Source: a bacterium
Lineage (GTDB): Bacteria > Armatimonadota > Zipacnadia > Zipacnadales > Zipacnadaceae
Reading direction: 5' to 3'
NCBI GenBank assembly: GCA_030603495.1
Contig: JAUVXR010000014.1
Location: forward strand, 1-64,000
Length of the DNA stretch: 64,000 bases
Made by a program: the position numbers and the translations under genes. This document shows positions 418 to 8,214 of this stretch, piece by piece; within the stretch, counting starts at the first letter, position 1, and each line of letters begins with the position of its first letter. Below the pieces are notes generated by a model. The model was not told the DNA's origin and did not search any database. It saw only the letters and a list, made by a program, of their open reading frames with translations.

Positions 418-1455
418 ATGTCTCAGTTTATTGATGTCATCCATTCGTCGGATGAGGGTACCGGGCCGCCGGGGACACCAACTGAATGGGAGCCGGCCGG
501 CCGCCGCGGCCTGCGGGTGGTGGAGGCCACCGTCGGGATAGATAGCAACAATCAGCAGATGGTGGATCCGTCCAAGTTCCGGCTGCTGCTTAGCGACTTT
601 CACCGCCTGGAGACAATAGCCTTCGAGGAGCAATTGGACGGCTACCTTTACATCTATGATGATCCGCAGGCCCCACCGCGCATAACTGTAGAGGCGGATC
701 GGGTAGTGGCTTCAGGTGCCTTCGGACGACTGGAGTGCGAATGCAGCGACTTGCGCTTAAGCCTGTTCGGCAATGAGGGACTCTTCTTCAGGTACGTACT
801 AGCGTTGTTAGAAGAAAAGCACAACATCTTCAGTCTGCATGCCTGTGCTCTGTACCAGCCCGACGACGACAGACTGCTAATCATTGCCGGCGGCGCCGGC
901 AGTGGCAAGAGCTGCTTTCTGATGAGCGCCATCGAGCGGGGGCTGCAGATCCTGGCCACGGAGATGGTACACTTCAGGGCAGACCAGCAACTGAGCTTCT
1001 TCAAGGGCTCGCTACTCGATAACGTACGGGTGGCCAATCTGCGGTATCACTATGCTGAGGCTGCGGCAATGCTAGGCGTGGAACTGCCCCAGGTCGGAGA
1101 CGAGTGGGCGACGAAGTTGTGTGTGGATCTGTCGGGTTATCAAGTGGACGCGGACATAATAGTCGATCCTAAAGTGGTGGTCGTCTTTCCCCATATCGAG
1201 CAGCAGGCGCCCACACATGCTCTGCACACCATTGAGGATCCGCGGCAGATGATAAGGGGGCTATACGATAAGGCCTCGGAGAAGGTTGCTGGGCCTACTC
1301 TACTGTATGAAAGCGTGCCTATGCCGCCGCTGCAGGGACCGCAGGCTGCCCAGCACCGTCTGGAGGCAGTGGCCAAACTAGTCAATTCGCCACACCTCAT
1401 TCGTACTGTATCAGTCTATGGCGCACCACAAACATGTTTGGAAGGACTATTGTAA
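418..1455 (+). CDS. HPr-kinase-like P-loop protein (putative small-molecule or protein kinase)
   Basis: This 345-residue protein has a Walker A motif GGAGSGKS at residues 158-165, preceded by a beta strand and 'SLHACAL' (139-145). That arrangement matches the HprK/HprK-like fold, where a short His-containing strand precedes the P-loop. In true HPr kinase/phosphorylase a DD pair follows the helix after the P-loop; here the equivalent stretch reads TEMVHF (181-186), so the catalytic acid could be Glu182. The N-terminal 130 residues are not the HprK regulatory domain. The stop codon overlaps the ATG of comA by one base (TAATG), which implies translational coupling. I infer ATP binding with confidence; the phosphoryl acceptor is unknown. 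Given the context, a sulfonate substrate such as sulfolactate is a possibility, as is a regulatory protein kinase. Confidence 0.7.
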   Translation: MSQFIDVIHSSDEGTGPPGTPTEWEPAGRRGLRVVEATVGIDSNNQQMVDPSKFRLLLSDFHRLETIAFEEQLDGYLYIYDDPQAPPRITVEADRVVASGAFGRLECECSDLRLSLFGNEGLFFRYVLALLEEKHNIFSLHACALYQPDDDRLLIIAGGAGSGKSCFLMSAIERGLQILATEMVHFRADQQLSFFKGSLLDNVRVANLRYHYAEAAAMLGVELPQVGDEWATKLCVDLSGYQVDADIIVDPKVVVVFPHIEQQAPTHALHTIEDPRQMIRGLYDKASEKVAGPTLLYESVPMPPLQGPQAAQHRLEAVAKLVNSPHLIRTVSVYGAPQTCLEGLL

Positions 1456-2270
1456 TGAAAGCTTGGGAGGAAGTACTCAGCCCCCCGGTGTCGGGGCGTA
1501 CCCAGAAGCCCCGCGAGGCGGGCTACACGATGGTTATTGACAAGGGGATGGGCCTCTTGGCTACACGTGATTTGGCAGAGTCCGCTGCTGATTACATTGA
1601 CAACGTCAAATTGACCTTCGGCACCTCGGCCTTTTGCGACAAGGAATTCCTTATCGAGAAAAACGCCATCCTGAGCGATGCCGGCATCACCGTGATGCCG
1701 GGGGGCACCTTCATTGAAGTCGCCATCTGGAAGGATAACTGGCAAGAGTACCTCAAGCACGCCCAAAAGCTGGGCTTTGGGGGGATGGAGATATCGGATG
1801 GCACTATCGAGTTGAGCCTGGAGCAGCGGGCCGAAGTCGTCAAGACCGCGGTAGACTTGGGCTTCACTGTGCTGACCGAGATAGGCAAGAAAGACCCGGA
1901 GATGGAAGTACCAATGGAGCAGCGACTGGAGCAGCTTCATCAGGATCTGAAACACGGCGCCTTCAAGGTAATCGTCGAGGCGCGTGCCGCTGGCAAGGGC
2001 GTGGGCATCTTTGATAAGTCCGGTGAAGTGGTGGAGAACGAAATCGAGGCGCTGCTGTCCGGCGTGGCTGACGTTAATGACCTGGTGTGGGAGGCGCCCA
2101 TCAAGTCGCAGCAGCAATACCTGATTCTGCGCTTTGGCCCCAATGTCAATCTGGGCAACGTGCCCCCTGAGGAGATATTGGCGCTGGAGGCCTTGCGCTG
2201 CGGCCTGCGTGGGGATACCTTGAAGAGAGCCTATTTCGAGGACATAGGAAGACCCCTGCCGGAGGCATAG
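1455..2270 (+). CDS. comA: Phosphosulfolactate synthase (ComA family)
   Basis: ComA joins sulfite to phosphoenolpyruvate to give (2R)-phospho-3-sulfolactate, the first step of coenzyme M synthesis in methanogens; bacterial homologues occur in Bacillus (YitD) and Xanthobacter. The 271-residue protein carries the family landmarks in order: DKG (29-31), PGGTFIE (82-88), EISDGT (112-117), EAPIKSQQ (213-220) and LRGDT (251-255), at the spacing I recall for the Methanocaldococcus enzyme. I chose the ATG at 1455 because it begins MKAWE like the archaeal enzyme's N-terminus and overlaps the upstream stop by one base. No ComB phosphatase, ComC or ComDE lies nearby, so this is not a standard coenzyme M cluster. 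The reaction might run towards sulfite release in this setting (inference). Confidence 0.9.
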   Translation: MKAWEEVLSPPVSGRTQKPREAGYTMVIDKGMGLLATRDLAESAADYIDNVKLTFGTSAFCDKEFLIEKNAILSDAGITVMPGGTFIEVAIWKDNWQEYLKHAQKLGFGGMEISDGTIELSLEQRAEVVKTAVDLGFTVLTEIGKKDPEMEVPMEQRLEQLHQDLKHGAFKVIVEARAAGKGVGIFDKSGEVVENEIEALLSGVADVNDLVWEAPIKSQQQYLILRFGPNVNLGNVPPEEILALEALRCGLRGDTLKRAYFEDIGRPLPEA

Positions 2271-2344
2271 CCCAAGGAGAGCCAGGTTGACGGTGAGAAG
2301 TTGGACAATTATAGTTTCGATCGCAGTTTAGAAGGTTAGGTTGA

Positions 2345-3412
2345 ATGATTAAGAGAGAATACCTTAGTGGTTGGCTGGTCATGCTAGTGGTGGCAGTGAT
2401 TTCGTACTACGCATCCAAGCAAATAGTAATGGGAGGAAAGAATCCGCTTGAGGCACCGGTCATCGCCATCGTGTTAGGCATTCTGATCACCAATTTCGGA
2501 TTGCTGCCGCGCGGTGCAGCCGCCGGCGTAAAATCGTTCGAAATACCGCTAATTTGGGGTATCGTGCTTATCGGCGCAGGCCTGGACTTTCATAACATCG
2601 CAGCGCAAGGAGTGCAGATGCTTGCCGTCATTGTGGTAACCATGTTGACCGGCTTCTGGGCTATCTACTTCCTGGCGAAGCTCTTCGGGCTGCCGCAAAA
2701 GCTGGCCATCCTGCTGTCCATAGGTACCACTATCTGCGGCGGCTCGGCTATCGCGGTGAGTTCGCCACTTATTGATGCCAAGGAGGAGGAGACCTCGTAT
2801 GCCATTGGCACCATCGGCCTGTGGGGCCTGGTGGCCATCATCCTGTACCCCAAGATCTTCCAGTTGTTCCAGCACCCGGGCATAGATCAGATATTCGGTG
2901 TGTTCGCTGGCACAGCTATTCACTCGACTCCGCAGGTGGTCGGCGCTGGTTTCATCTTCTCGGAAATAGCCGGTGAGACGGCAACGGCCGTGAAGTTAGT
3001 GCGCAACACCTTCATTGCGCCACTGGCCTTCGTCATCGCTCTGTGGTATAGCTGGACTGTTGCCAGGAAATCAGCGGCCGCTGCGGGCGAAGCAGGAGCG
3101 TCCGAGGGGCAGGAAACTGAGAAGCCCAAGCAAGTGAACTGGGTCAAGGCCTTCCCGTGGTTCCTGTTTGGCTACTTCGTGATGGTCGCCTTGCGTAGCT
3201 ACGGGTTTTTCACCGACTTCGGCATTACTATCTTCAATCAGACGGGCCAATTCCTCATATTGCTGGGCATGGCCGGGATTGGGTTGAATACCCGATTCTC
3301 AGCTTTCAAGGAGATCGGCATTAAACCGCTGGTGGTGGGATTCATTGGCGCGCTCATCGTGGCGGCCACAAGCCTGGCCATGATCTTTGGCCTCCACATC
3401 GGCGGGGCGTAG
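2345..3412 (+). CDS. YeiH/COG2855 (UPF0324) family membrane transporter, putative sulfur-oxyanion exporter
   Basis: A 355-residue polytopic membrane protein with about ten hydrophobic segments. Family landmarks include 'GIVLIGAGLDF', 'TTICGGSAIAVSSPLI' and 'GTAIHSTPQVVGAG'. COG2855 includes YeiH and the putative sulfate/sulfite exporters found beside organosulfonate degradation genes (SuyZ/TauZ type); its biochemistry is poorly established. A charged cytoplasmic loop (around residues 240-265) separates the last three helices. The gene lies 74 bp after comA on the same strand, which supports a role in moving sulfite or sulfate, either out during sulfonate degradation or across the membrane for ComA. 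Confidence 0.82.
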   Translation: MIKREYLSGWLVMLVVAVISYYASKQIVMGGKNPLEAPVIAIVLGILITNFGLLPRGAAAGVKSFEIPLIWGIVLIGAGLDFHNIAAQGVQMLAVIVVTMLTGFWAIYFLAKLFGLPQKLAILLSIGTTICGGSAIAVSSPLIDAKEEETSYAIGTIGLWGLVAIILYPKIFQLFQHPGIDQIFGVFAGTAIHSTPQVVGAGFIFSEIAGETATAVKLVRNTFIAPLAFVIALWYSWTVARKSAAAAGEAGASEGQETEKPKQVNWVKAFPWFLFGYFVMVALRSYGFFTDFGITIFNQTGQFLILLGMAGIGLNTRFSAFKEIGIKPLVVGFIGALIVAATSLAMIFGLHIGGA

Positions 3413-3492
3413 CCGCCCGTATATTCCAGGCAAAACACTCCTGGTCACTCCATGCCGGCACGAAGTCAATCCTGCGGCTCAGGTAAGTGTCT

Positions 3493-4476
3493 ATGAGAAA
3501 TCGCAACGCTCCTGACATAGTAGTGGCAGAAGACATAGTTGGGTCGGCAATGGCGCAGCTTGCCGACAGCTTCGAGGTATATCAGGACGCCGGTCTGTGG
3601 CAGCGTCCTGACGACCTGGCGGACGTTGTCAGCACTGCTCGGGCACTAATCGTACGCAACCGCGCCCAAGTTACTTCTGAATTACTCCAGCAAGCCGACC
3701 AACTAGTTGTGGTAGGGCGAGCGGGAGCCGGCCTGGATAATGTGGATGTGCAGGCGGCCAGCAACCTGGGAATTGTGGTCTGCTCCGCCCCGGTTCAGAA
3801 TGCCACTTCGGTCGCCGAGCACACCCTCGCCCTGATGCTCAGCCTTGCCCGACGTATTCCGCACGCCGATTGCTCAGTCCGGCAGGGCCAGTGGTTGCGT
3901 CACGAGCACACCGGGATTCAGCTAGCCGGCAAGGTCTTGGGCGTCATCGGCCTGGGCAACATCGGCCAGCGTGTGGCGACGTACGGTCGAACATTGGGTA
4001 TGCAGGTGATCGCTCACGATCCCTATCTGTCTCCGGATAGCGAGGCAGTCGCACAACTGGGCTGCACACTAATGCCGCTATCGGACCTGCTATCCCGGGC
4101 CGACGTAGCGACTATTCACGTACCTCTCACCGACGCGACCCACCACCTGCTGAACCGTCAGGCGTTCGAGCTGATGAAGGACAGTGCGCTGCTCATCAAC
4201 ACCTCGCGCGGCCCAGTTGTCAACGAGGCCGACCTTGGTGAGGCCCTCACGTCCGGCGTAATAGCCGGGGCGGCCCTGGACGTGCGAGAGACCGAACCGC
4301 CTGACCCGAACAGCCCCCTGCATATGCTGGACAATGTGGTGCTCACGCCTCATATCGCCGCCTTCACCACAGCGGCCCAGAATGCAGTTGTCGAAGCTGT
4401 TGTGGCTGATGTGGCGGCGGTCCTGGATGGCCAGGCAGCCAGCTACTATGCTAACTTTCCCCGCCCGCAGCGCTGA
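3493..4476 (+). CDS. D-isomer-specific 2-hydroxyacid dehydrogenase (SerA/SlcC-like), possible sulfolactate dehydrogenase
   Basis: The 327-residue protein contains the Rossmann motif GLGNIG (153-158), an aspartate after the second strand (D176) that points to NAD rather than NADP, and the catalytic triad Arg239 (NTSRG), Glu268 and His287 (LTPHIAA). It lacks the C-terminal ACT and ASB domains of full-length SerA. Sulfolactate dehydrogenase SlcC belongs to this family and converts (S)-sulfolactate to sulfopyruvate; the comA and YeiH neighbours make that activity plausible. Phosphoglycerate dehydrogenase or glyoxylate/hydroxypyruvate reductase activity cannot be excluded from sequence. An in-frame GTG lies two codons earlier at 3487; I preferred the ATG. 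Confidence 0.85.
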   Translation: MRNRNAPDIVVAEDIVGSAMAQLADSFEVYQDAGLWQRPDDLADVVSTARALIVRNRAQVTSELLQQADQLVVVGRAGAGLDNVDVQAASNLGIVVCSAPVQNATSVAEHTLALMLSLARRIPHADCSVRQGQWLRHEHTGIQLAGKVLGVIGLGNIGQRVATYGRTLGMQVIAHDPYLSPDSEAVAQLGCTLMPLSDLLSRADVATIHVPLTDATHHLLNRQAFELMKDSALLINTSRGPVVNEADLGEALTSGVIAGAALDVRETEPPDPNSPLHMLDNVVLTPHIAAFTTAAQNAVVEAVVADVAAVLDGQAASYYANFPRPQR

Positions 4477-4504
4477 AAGCTGCTCTCAACGGAGGTAGAC
4501 CGAT

Positions 4505-5917
4505 ATGGATATGCTGATAGGTGGACAGTGGATTTCAAAGGATGCTGTGCGAGAAATACGTAGTCCTTTTGATGGAACAGTTGTGGACACAGTGCCCGCT
4601 GCCGATAGCAATGATGTGCGGGCTGCCGTGGATGCTGCTGAGGAGGGCGCCAAAGCCATGGGCGCTATGCCCGCGCACCAGCGCTGCCAACTTCTGCACC
4701 GGGCCTCGGAGCTGCTGGCTGAACGGCAGGAAGACATTTCCCAACTGCTGGCGCGCGAAGTTGGCAAGACGATAGGGGAGGGCAGGGCTGAGGCCTCGCG
4801 GCCACCGATCATATTCGATTTCTCGGCTGATGCGGCCAGACATATCGCTGGCGAGGTTATTCCCCTTGACGCCGATGCGGGCGGAGTGGGACGCCAGGGT
4901 TTCTGCAAACGCGTGCCCTGTGGCATAGTAAGCGCCATTAGTCCCTTCAATTTCCCTGTTGCTCTGAGCGCTCATAAGATAGGCCCAGCCCTAGCTGCCG
5001 GAAATAGCGTAATACTCAAACCCGCCAGCCAGACGCCCCTGGCAGCGCTGGCTATGGCTGCGGCTATTGACGAAGCTGGTTTCCCGCCGGGCGCTTTGAA
5101 TGTGGTGACAGCCAGCGGTGGGGAAGCTGAGCCGATGATTACTGATGAGCGAGTAAGAGTGATTACCTTTACCGGCAGTGCTGAAGTCGGGCGTGGACTG
5201 TCTCAGCAGGCCGGTATCAAGCGGCTGCACCTGGAGCTGGGTTCCAGTTCCTCGGTCGCCGTGATGGCAGACGCGGACTGGGAGGCTGCTCTGCCCCGGC
5301 TGGTTACCGGCGCGTTTGGTGTGGCGGGCCAGGTCTGCATCTCGGTGCAGAAGATTCTGGTACATCAGCTCATCTATGACCAGTTCCTGGCGCGCTATGT
5401 GCCCTTGGTCCAGGAGCTTAAAGTGGGCGATCCGCTGGACGAGAGTACCGACGTCGGCCCAATGATTTCGGAGAAGGCCGCCGAGCGGGCCGAACAGTGG
5501 GTCCAGGAGGCCGTGGATGCCGGTGGCAAAGCACTTTGCGGGGCCAGCCGAGAGGGCAATCTGTTCGAGCCCACCGTGCTGGTAGATGTACCGTGGGGCA
5601 CAAGGGTAACCTGTGAGGAGGCTTTTGCGCCGATCGCAGTGATCTGCCCAATCAAGAACGTGGACGAGGCTATTGAGTTGACCAATGCTACTCCCTACGG
5701 CCTCCAGACCGGCATCTATACCCGGGACATTGCTACCGCCTTTAAGTTTGCTGACGCAGTCAATCAAGGTGGCATAAACGTTAATGAAACCTGTTGGTGG
5801 CGCGTAGACTTCCAACCCTACGGCGGAATGAAGAACAGCGGCATAGGCCGTGAGGGGATCGCCTACGCCATCGAAGAGATGACCGAATGGAAGACGATAA
5901 CATTCAACCTCTCTTGA
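4505..5917 (+). CDS. NAD(P)-dependent aldehyde dehydrogenase (lactaldehyde/sulfolactaldehyde dehydrogenase-like)
   Basis: A full-length 470-residue aldehyde dehydrogenase. Visible catalytic residues are Asn149 (SPFNF), Glu244 (LELGSSSS) and the nucleophile Cys278 (GQVCIS). The LELGSSSSV version of the Glu motif, instead of LELGGK, is seen in the lactaldehyde-type branch, which acts on short hydroxy-aldehydes. In this locus the attractive substrate is 3-sulfolactaldehyde, giving sulfolactate as in the sulfo-ED and sulfo-transaldolase pathways; this is inference. A GGAGGT ribosome binding site precedes the ATG, and the gene lies 28 bp after the dehydrogenase gene, so the two are very probably co-transcribed. 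Confidence 0.88.
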   Translation: MDMLIGGQWISKDAVREIRSPFDGTVVDTVPAADSNDVRAAVDAAEEGAKAMGAMPAHQRCQLLHRASELLAERQEDISQLLAREVGKTIGEGRAEASRPPIIFDFSADAARHIAGEVIPLDADAGGVGRQGFCKRVPCGIVSAISPFNFPVALSAHKIGPALAAGNSVILKPASQTPLAALAMAAAIDEAGFPPGALNVVTASGGEAEPMITDERVRVITFTGSAEVGRGLSQQAGIKRLHLELGSSSSVAVMADADWEAALPRLVTGAFGVAGQVCISVQKILVHQLIYDQFLARYVPLVQELKVGDPLDESTDVGPMISEKAAERAEQWVQEAVDAGGKALCGASREGNLFEPTVLVDVPWGTRVTCEEAFAPIAVICPIKNVDEAIELTNATPYGLQTGIYTRDIATAFKFADAVNQGGINVNETCWWRVDFQPYGGMKNSGIGREGIAYAIEEMTEWKTITFNLS

Positions 5918-6023
5918 AACTCAAGTTTCGCCAATGCAGGTACAACGGAGTATCAACCAACCTGCCATTCGGCAGATATCCACACCTTTTGCATCCTAAA
6001 AACCAGCAAGGAGGTCACATACT

Positions 6024-6674
6024 GTGAAGATATTTCTGGATACTGCTCACGTCGAAGAAATCCGCACCGGATGTTCGTGGGGAATAGTGGATGGTGTAAC
6101 CACGAACCCCAGCCACGTGGCGGCCACCGGACGACCCTTCCGGGAGGTAGTGGAGGAGATCTGCGACATATGCCCTGGCCCTGTGAGCGCTGAGGTGATT
6201 AGCACCGAGGCAGAAGGTATGATTGAGCAAGCGCGAGAGGTATCGTCTTGGGCCCCGAACATTGTCGTCAAGGTTCCGGTAATCAAAGAAGGTATCAAGG
6301 CAATCGCCAAGCTATCCCAGGAGGGCATAAAGACCAACGCAACGGTCTGTTTCTCCCCCAATCAAGCTCTGCTGGCGGCCAAGGCCGGGGCCACCTACAT
6401 CTCGCCGTTTGTGGGCCGGTTTGATGCAATAGGACACGACGGGATGCAACTGGCCGAAGAGATAGTGCAGATTTACTCCCAGTACGACTTTGATACTGAG
6501 ATAATCGTCGCCGCCGCGCGTCATCCTTTGCATGTGCTGCAGGCCGCCTTGATAGGCGCGCAGATAACTACTATGCGCTTTGATATCCTCGAGCAGATGT
6601 TCGATCATCCCTTGACGGACGCGGGTGTGGAGCAATTCCTGGCTGACTGGAATGCTGCCGGCCTATCTCTATAG
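6024..6674 (+). CDS. Small transaldolase / fructose-6-phosphate-aldolase-like protein (TalC/FSA family)
   Basis: A 216-residue class I aldolase of the compact transaldolase family. The Schiff-base lysine is Lys83 in VVKVPV, followed by the family's [11 protein letters not shown] and the [11 protein letters not shown] segment (127-137). The N-terminus MKIFLDTA is exactly where the family starts, with AAGGAGG upstream. Relatives include fructose-6-phosphate aldolase and SftT, the transaldolase that splits 6-deoxy-6-sulfofructose to release sulfolactaldehyde. Next to an aldehyde dehydrogenase and sulfonate genes, an SftT-like role is a reasonable hypothesis, but no sulfoquinovose isomerase or sulfoquinovosidase is visible nearby. 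The 106-bp gap before it suggests the same operon with a possible internal promoter. Confidence 0.85.
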
Positions 6675-7077: not shown

Positions 7078-8214
7078 ATGACTGCGCGCGAGCGAGTGTT
7101 GATGGCGCTCAATCATGAAGAAGCCGATCGAATACCCATCCATGACAGCCCCTGGGCGGCAGCGATCGAGCGTTGGCACAACGAAGGACTCCCTGAGGAA
7201 GTCAACCCGGCAGAGTACTTCGACTATGAGTTGGTGGGCTTCGGCGCCGATACTTCACCGCGCCTCCCCATAGAAACCGTGGGTGAGGATGAAGAGTACA
7301 TCCTCAAGACTACGCAATACGGTGGGCTTCGGCGCGACCACAAAGATTACTCATCTACTCCTGAGATCATTGACTACCCCTGCAAAACGCGGGAAGATTG
7401 GGAAGAAATAAAGGAGCGTCTGACTCCGGATCGTGATCGAGTTGATTGGGAGGGCGCCGGGCTGGCGGGGGCTGGTGAGGATCAGCGTGGGGATGACTCA
7501 GTGTTGGAGACCGAGCGCTGCGACTGCTGTCTGGGTCTGCCCGGTTGGCAACAGGCCTACGACGCAGGCCGGTTCGTCTTTTATCCGGCGGCCTTCGGCT
7601 ATGACAAGATTCAATGCTACGTAGCTTCCGAGCAGTTGCTGATAGCGATCGCGAGTGAGCCGGATTGGGTCCGCGATATGTACGAGACGGATGCGACTCT
7701 GGCGATTCAGATGTACGAGATAATGACCGAAGGCGGTTTCCAGTTCGACGGTGCCTACCTTTTCTGCGACCTGGGCTACCGTAACGGCTTGCTCTTCTCA
7801 CCGCACCACTATGATGAGCAGCTCCGTCCTACCTTCCAGCGGCTGGTGGATTACTTCCATTCCCAGGGGCTGCCCGTGCTCCTGCACAGTTGCGGCTGCG
7901 TCACAGAGCTTATCCCCAGGTTTATTGAGGACGGCCTGGACTGCTTGCAGCCGCTTGAGCAAAAAGCCGGAATGGACCTGCTAGAGGTGAAGAAGGAATT
8001 CGGCAACACGCTGGCCCTGATGGGGGGCATTGATGTCAGGACCATGGCTGATTCTGATCCTACGGCAATAGAACAAGAGATTCAGACAAAGATTCCCCTC
8101 GCCAAACAGGGCGGCGGATATATCTACCACTCTGACCACTCCGTGCCCAACAACGTTAGTTTTGATCGGTATTGCCGAACCCTCGAACTGGTCCGCGAAC
8201 ATGGTGCTTATTAA
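7078..8214 (+). CDS. Uroporphyrinogen decarboxylase (URO-D) superfamily protein, MtaA/MtbA-like
   Basis: This 378-residue protein has the URO-D fold signature but not the N-terminal arginine-rich substrate loop of HemE, so it is not a haem enzyme. A His-X-Cys pair (LLHSCG, about residue 270) corresponds to the zinc site of the methylcobamide:coenzyme M methyltransferases MtaA and MtbA. The C-terminal cysteine ligand of those enzymes is not evident; the stretch reads HSDHSVP instead. Homologues are frequent in Armatimonadota and Planctomycetes, mostly without assigned function. The start is fixed by AGAGGAGG seven bases before the ATG at 7078. With a ComA homologue upstream, methyl transfer to a thiol sulfonate is tempting but unproven. 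Confidence 0.8.
   Translation: MTARERVLMALNHEEADRIPIHDSPWAAAIERWHNEGLPEEVNPAEYFDYELVGFGADTSPRLPIETVGEDEEYILKTTQYGGLRRDHKDYSSTPEIIDYPCKTREDWEEIKERLTPDRDRVDWEGAGLAGAGEDQRGDDSVLETERCDCCLGLPGWQQAYDAGRFVFYPAAFGYDKIQCYVASEQLLIAIASEPDWVRDMYETDATLAIQMYEIMTEGGFQFDGAYLFCDLGYRNGLLFSPHHYDEQLRPTFQRLVDYFHSQGLPVLLHSCGCVTELIPRFIEDGLDCLQPLEQKAGMDLLEVKKEFGNTLALMGGIDVRTMADSDPTAIEQEIQTKIPLAKQGGGYIYHSDHSVPNNVSFDRYCRTLELVREHGAY

Follow-up and report, generated by a model that had tools for sequence, protein, structure and literature searches.

The window analysed here comprises bases 1–64,000 of contig C32, in a 2.67-Mb draft genome from an uncultured member of the Armatimonadota. It starts at contig base 1, and sequence further 5′ of the operon described below is therefore off the contig. 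The operon consists of six co-directional, closely spaced open reading frames (ORFs), preceded by a promoter-like site:

123–152, + strand: promoter-like site (TTGACA-18-TATAAT, second hexamer preceded by TG; sigma-70 consensus scan, 12/12)
418–1455, + strand: P1, 345 aa, without Pfam or NCBIfam match, modeled with AlphaFold; proposed sulfolactate kinase
1434 (or 1455)–2270, + strand: ComA, phosphosulfolactate synthase, PF02679/TIGR03849 above cut-off; proposed to run in reverse
2345–3412, + strand: YeiH/PF03601 membrane transporter (PF03601, 229 bits); proposed sulfite exporter
3487–4476, + strand: D-2-hydroxyacid dehydrogenase (HADH), SerA-like without ACT domain, PF02826/PF00389; proposed SlcC-like sulfolactate dehydrogenase
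4505–5917, + strand: aldehyde dehydrogenase (ALDH; PF00171, 503 bits); proposed sulfolactaldehyde dehydrogenase
6024–6674, + strand: TalC/FSA-type transaldolase (TAL), operon-specific paralog (TIGR00875, 315 bits, cut-off 246); proposed to release sulfolactaldehyde from sulfofructose

The six genes and their order agreed with the original prediction: all were confirmed as ORFs, and the families matched. A strong promoter shared by the six genes had also been proposed. A sigma-70-type site with a perfect 12/12 score and an 18-bp spacer does lie 265 bp 5′ of P1, but it is a consensus match only and does not by itself show function. The 265-nt stretch between this site and P1 (153–417) had no Rfam match and could be an untranslated leader; an Rfam search of the operon likewise gave no match. 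The stop codon of P1 overlaps the more likely start of ComA (1455) in the sequence TAATG (1453–1457), which suggests coupled translation.

Conservation of the gene order in relatives had been named as a check, and a second genus of the family does have the full six-gene order (L005/L008; ‘Candidatus Zipacnadia’, Armatimonadota, the nearest named relative with the locus), indicating that the arrangement is not due to chance. A genome of the same genus as the window (G001) retained only a C-terminal scrap of ALDH along with a complete TAL that shares 96% identity with the window TAL (L132:8046–9023). Given this decayed remnant, the operon looks to be an accessory trait, open to loss. In three of the family's genomes, URO-D/MtaA-like genes adjoin the operon (window 7078–8214; L009:391–1644; L104:4112–5176).

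ComA scored 329 bits against the equivalog model TIGR03849 (cut-off 280) and aligned with the solved ComA 1qwg over positions 28–264. A P1 profile matched 6 of 291 genomes of the phylum Armatimonadota, and ComA was the next gene in all six. Strong P1 matches were also present in 7 of 247 genomes of the phylum Aminicenantes, where ComA adjoined P1 in six (loci include L010), with no other pathway genes near the pair; in the seventh (G291), YeiH was directly 3′ of P1 and ComA lay on another contig. In a maximum-likelihood tree, the P1-associated ComAs formed one clade (support 100/99) that was separate from the ComAs of Bacillota. The adjacency and the single clade support the earlier suggestion that P1 and ComA act together, and we conclude from gene arrangement and phylogeny that they are a genuine pair. 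Fusions of ComA suggested in L029, L044 and L048 look instead like long open frames or a stretch of N, not domain fusions, and L004 (29% identity to ComA) was set aside as a distant ComA-like sequence with a very long branch and no adjoining P1. Of 69 ComA loci, 22 (mostly from Bacillota; L060, L061, L080 and others) encode a DUF441 membrane protein immediately 3′ of ComA or ComA-ComB, a candidate sulfolactate or sulfite transporter.

ComB normally catalyzes the step after ComA in biosynthesis. Its family (PF04029) was found in none of 15 genomes (the window genome, G000, and 14 that were related or P1-bearing), whereas the same search found it in 7 of 14 controls. Most of the 15 genomes are drafts; nevertheless, absence from all 15 is unlikely to be an accident, which bears out the original observation that ComB is absent.

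P1 had no family match in Pfam or NCBIfam, and sequence searches against the PDB found no relative. An AlphaFold prediction based on 10 sequences (pLDDT 37) was discarded, while one based on 19 homologs reached a pLDDT of 89.4 and a pTM of 0.87. When this model was compared to known structures with Foldseek and VIA-align, PEP carboxykinase (PEPCK) filled nearly all of the top rows over approximately the whole chain (VIA Z 13.7, 283 residues aligned, rmsd 5.4; Foldseek E ~1e-9). The P1 profile matched HPr-kinase-like proteins with 97.8% probability over 75 columns spanning the H...P-loop...acid region. The profile alignment with PEPCK was weak (14.5% probability), with His141 and the P-loop falling on the PEPCK histidine and P-loop. 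Residues H141, G158, G163, K164, E182 and H185 were invariant in P1. The predicted fold and the order of histidine, P-loop lysine and acidic motif are thus shared with PEPCK and HPr kinase/phosphorylase, but P1 differs from both in its 345-residue length, its lack of Pfam and NCBIfam membership, an identity of only ~10%, and an acidic motif that consists of Glu182 instead of an Asp pair. Against the Pfam PEPCK family, the window protein had no match, and the best member gave an E of 0.19; a separate PEPCK-family gene is present in the window genome. P1 is best read, from the predicted model, as a P-loop phosphotransferase of PEPCK/HPr-kinase-like fold, and its partner ComA would point to its substrate.

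YeiH matched PF03601 above the gathering threshold but fell below the TIGR00698 cut-off. The YeiH homolog directly after P1 in G291 is 43% identical to it. In Bacillota, ComA adjoins YeiH in loci that have no P1 (L035, L050, L053–L057, L059), so YeiH may carry either sulfite or sulfolactate, in either direction; at the present locus it would probably act in export. HADH matched PF02826/PF00389 and was below every NCBIfam equivalog cut-off.

The relatives of the operon contain additional genes. In G011, a ComC-family gene lies directly 5′ of P1, and its best NCBIfam model is L-sulfolactate dehydrogenase, at 310 bits (cut-off 500). The original statement that ComC is absent therefore fails across the relatives. 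In L102 and L103, which belong to another family of the phylum, P1-ComA-YeiH is followed by a LarA-like racemase, with TAL, ALDH and a TauE/SafE sulfite exporter (PF01925) arranged divergently alongside; in L101 the order is P1-ComA-LarA. The best models for LarA in L102/L103 were malate racemases, at 411–444 bits and below cut-offs, malate being the carboxylate analogue of sulfolactate. Inversion of sulfolactate by two dehydrogenases has been described in the SlcC/ComC-SuyAB scheme (PMC12421959), and the ComC-family gene in G011, together with HADH, suggests a similar inversion here. HADH had previously been listed among the C3-sulfonate families, but was given no role; SlcC-like stereo-inversion of sulfolactate fits. 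No inversion partner was seen in the window genome, where an Ldh2 fragment (L084) was considered as a ComC remnant and rejected as too unlike the G011 gene by eye.

A different arrangement was found in G002, a genome of the same genus that lacks ComA. One of its contigs carries, in order, a SuyB/altronate-dehydratase-family gene (GD_AH_second and GD_AH_C domains), an unassigned 217-aa gene, HADH, ALDH, a URO-D gene and TAL. P1, ComA and YeiH are all absent from this contig, and the HADH beside the SuyB-family gene is 68% identical to the window HADH. The contig is truncated, and SuyA, which is not visible, would fall off it. The SuyB family also includes sugar-acid dehydratases, and the G002 gene is therefore likely, but not proven, to be SuyB. 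In the window genome itself, nothing matched the SuyB family at E ≤ 1e-20, in keeping with the earlier statement that SuyAB is absent, but this absence does not extend to the genus. The original prediction also held that the same neighborhood without ComA or YeiH would refute it. G002 is literally such a neighborhood; however, what replaces the missing genes is a candidate sulfolactate lyase, and the sulfolactate reading is strengthened rather than weakened.

The closest plasmid relatives of the G002 SuyB-family gene are haloarchaeal (45–46% identical), and in Haloarcula the neighbors include a YeiH-family exporter, a SuyA-size gene and a ComC-family dehydrogenase, with ALDH nearby. The cluster on a Haloarcula pelagica plasmid (L129:1–21119; NZ_CP126162.1 246323–267441), also seen in L128, contains the YeiH-family exporter and two UxaA-family (SuyA/SuyB-like) genes, and further holds a ComC-family gene, ALDH, a sugar transporter and sugar-oxidizing genes. 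By its gene content it is possibly an archaeal sulfosugar pathway; none has been characterized according to a 2026 review (PMC12890257).

Taken together, we consider it slightly better than an even chance that the locus is a sulfolactate-breakdown operon in which a kinase and a reversed ComA replace the lyase SuyAB. We infer all of the pathway substrates, the direction of ComA, the chemistry of P1 and the direction of transport by YeiH. TAL would take a three-carbon unit from 6-deoxy-6-sulfofructose and free sulfolactaldehyde, which ALDH would oxidize to (S)-sulfolactate. HADH, with a ComC-like or LarA-like partner as in the relatives, would convert (S)- to (R)-sulfolactate. P1 would then phosphorylate the 2-hydroxyl of sulfolactate at the expense of ATP, ComA in reverse would eliminate sulfite and form PEP, and YeiH would export the sulfite. 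The P1 and ComA steps would mirror those of glycerate 2-kinase and enolase, with sulfite instead of water as the leaving group. The more specific claim, that a new PEPCK/HPr-kinase-like kinase family making 2-phosphosulfolactate and a reversed ComA constitute an undescribed sulfolactate-splitting route, swapped with a SuyAB-type lyase within one genus, we place just on the doubtful side of an even chance.

ComA could instead run forward, from PEP and sulfite to phosphosulfolactate, with P1 standing in for ComB to remove the phosphate, for instance by phosphorolysis of the HPr-kinase/phosphorylase type; the dehydrogenases would then make sulfopyruvate, and YeiH would move sulfite or sulfolactate. 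To our knowledge, ComA has been demonstrated only in this PEP-consuming direction. Moreover, ComB is missing wherever P1 occurs, HPr-kinase-like proteins are able to act as phosphorylases, and Bacillota with ComA-ComB also have membrane proteins adjoining ComA. Biosynthesis leaves the presence of TAL and ALDH in the cluster unexplained, however, as well as the SuyB-family swap in G002 and the TauE/SafE sulfite exporter in L102/L103, and we regard it as rather unlikely. Breakdown is favored by the G002 swap, by LarA and TauE/SafE in L102/L103, and by the ComC-family gene in G011. The breakdown model originally proposed is supported in part, in its C3-sulfonate chemistry and as the better of the two directions, but not in the absence of ComC and SuyAB across relatives.

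The upper part of the proposed breakdown pathway depends on ALDH and TAL. The best NCBIfam models for ALDH were lactaldehyde, glyceraldehyde-3-P, sulfoacetaldehyde and phosphonoacetaldehyde dehydrogenases, all below cut-off; among YeiH, HADH, ALDH and TAL, only TAL passed a curated NCBIfam equivalog cut-off. Sulfolactaldehyde dehydrogenases bind the sulfonate through residues of either the Arg171/Arg289 or the His164/Asn280 type (PMC10599462). The window ALDH has His at the first of these positions (by motif) and Gly at the second. The His was considered but not retained as evidence of sulfonate binding, since all of the related ALDHs in the comparison have it. ALDH orthologs, 62–63% identical, occur in another family of the order in genomes without ComA (L094–L097, L105–L108). 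A second TAL copy, 62% identical to the operon TAL, is present elsewhere in the window genome. The operon TAL is closer to ordinary transaldolases (281 bits) than to BmSF-TAL (162 bits). However, A34, V86, A106, A164, R185 and I188 are common to the operon TALs (window, the G001 remnant, G011, G002, G269 and G270; the truncated G002 gene shows A34 and V86 only), and were seen in none of 20 other TALs. In E. coli TalB, the ASxR motif, to which Ser164 belongs, contributes to phosphate binding. A sulfonated substrate would be in line with the loss of Ser164 and the appearance of Arg185, although common ancestry could also explain the shared residues.

A second alternative accepts P1-ComA as a sulfonate module, but takes the substrates of ALDH and TAL to be ordinary sugars or lactaldehyde and their place in the operon to have some other cause. 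The affinities of ALDH to lactaldehyde dehydrogenase and of TAL to ordinary transaldolases agree with this, as do the ALDH orthologs in genomes without ComA and the survival of TAL alone in G001. Nevertheless, TAL and ALDH occur alongside P1-ComA in two families that are distant from each other and differ in gene arrangement (L005 and L102/L103), they also go with the SuyB-family gene in G002, and the operon TALs have changes in common at columns that are conserved elsewhere; we therefore find it improbable that these two enzymes are unrelated to the sulfonate. It is equally hard to credit that P1 serves as a regulatory protein kinase with ComA or a neighbor as its target, as HPr kinase phosphorylates the protein HPr, and has no role on a small molecule of the pathway: the profile similarity to HPr-kinase-like proteins and the tight pairing with one protein would suit such a role, but along its full length the model matches PEPCK, which acts on small molecules, and, with ComB absent, no enzyme other than P1 would be left at these loci to make or use the phosphosulfolactate of ComA.

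The proposed breakdown pathway has parts in common with three known systems. As in the SlcC/ComC-SuyAB pathway of Chromohalobacter and Paracoccus (PMC12421959), sulfolactaldehyde would be oxidized to sulfolactate, inverted by two dehydrogenases, and cleaved with release and export of sulfite. The two share an SlcC-like HADH (in the window) and a ComC-family gene (in G011), but here P1 and ComA would stand in for SuyAB, ATP would be spent, and PEP rather than pyruvate is expected. An FSA-type transaldolase and ALDH in one cluster are also features of sulfo-TAL sulfoglycolysis in Bacillus megaterium and others (PMC12890257). In contrast to that pathway, no sulfofructose isomerase or sulfoquinovosidase was seen here, TAL is nearer to ordinary transaldolases, and the pathway would go on to sulfite. 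(The YihQ sulfoquinovosidase model gave no match in 8 genomes, and it exceeded its cut-off in none of 14 control genomes.) Finally, ComA is above the equivalog cut-off, as in the ComA-ComB biosynthetic systems of Bacillus spores and methanogen coenzyme M, but the operon differs from these in the lack of ComB, the partnership with P1, the separate ComA clade and the breakdown context.

In the literature searched, which covers few subscription papers, there was no mention of a “sulfolactate kinase” and no earlier description of a kinase-ComA breakdown route; the only paper there combining “phosphosulfolactate” and “desulfonation” deals with isethionate lyase. Sulfosugar breakdown yields sulfolactate as an end product, and this compound is an important reservoir of sulfur. 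SuyAB is described as the enzyme that directly cleaves its carbon–sulfur bond (PMC12890257). If the proposed pathway is correct, the kinase and reversed ComA would constitute a second direct microbial route of sulfite release from sulfolactate. It would also explain ComA genes in bacteria without ComB and give a function to the uncharacterized P-loop protein P1, which is present in two phyla. Armatimonadota, and possibly Aminicenantes, would then join the organisms that take part in sulfonate cycling.
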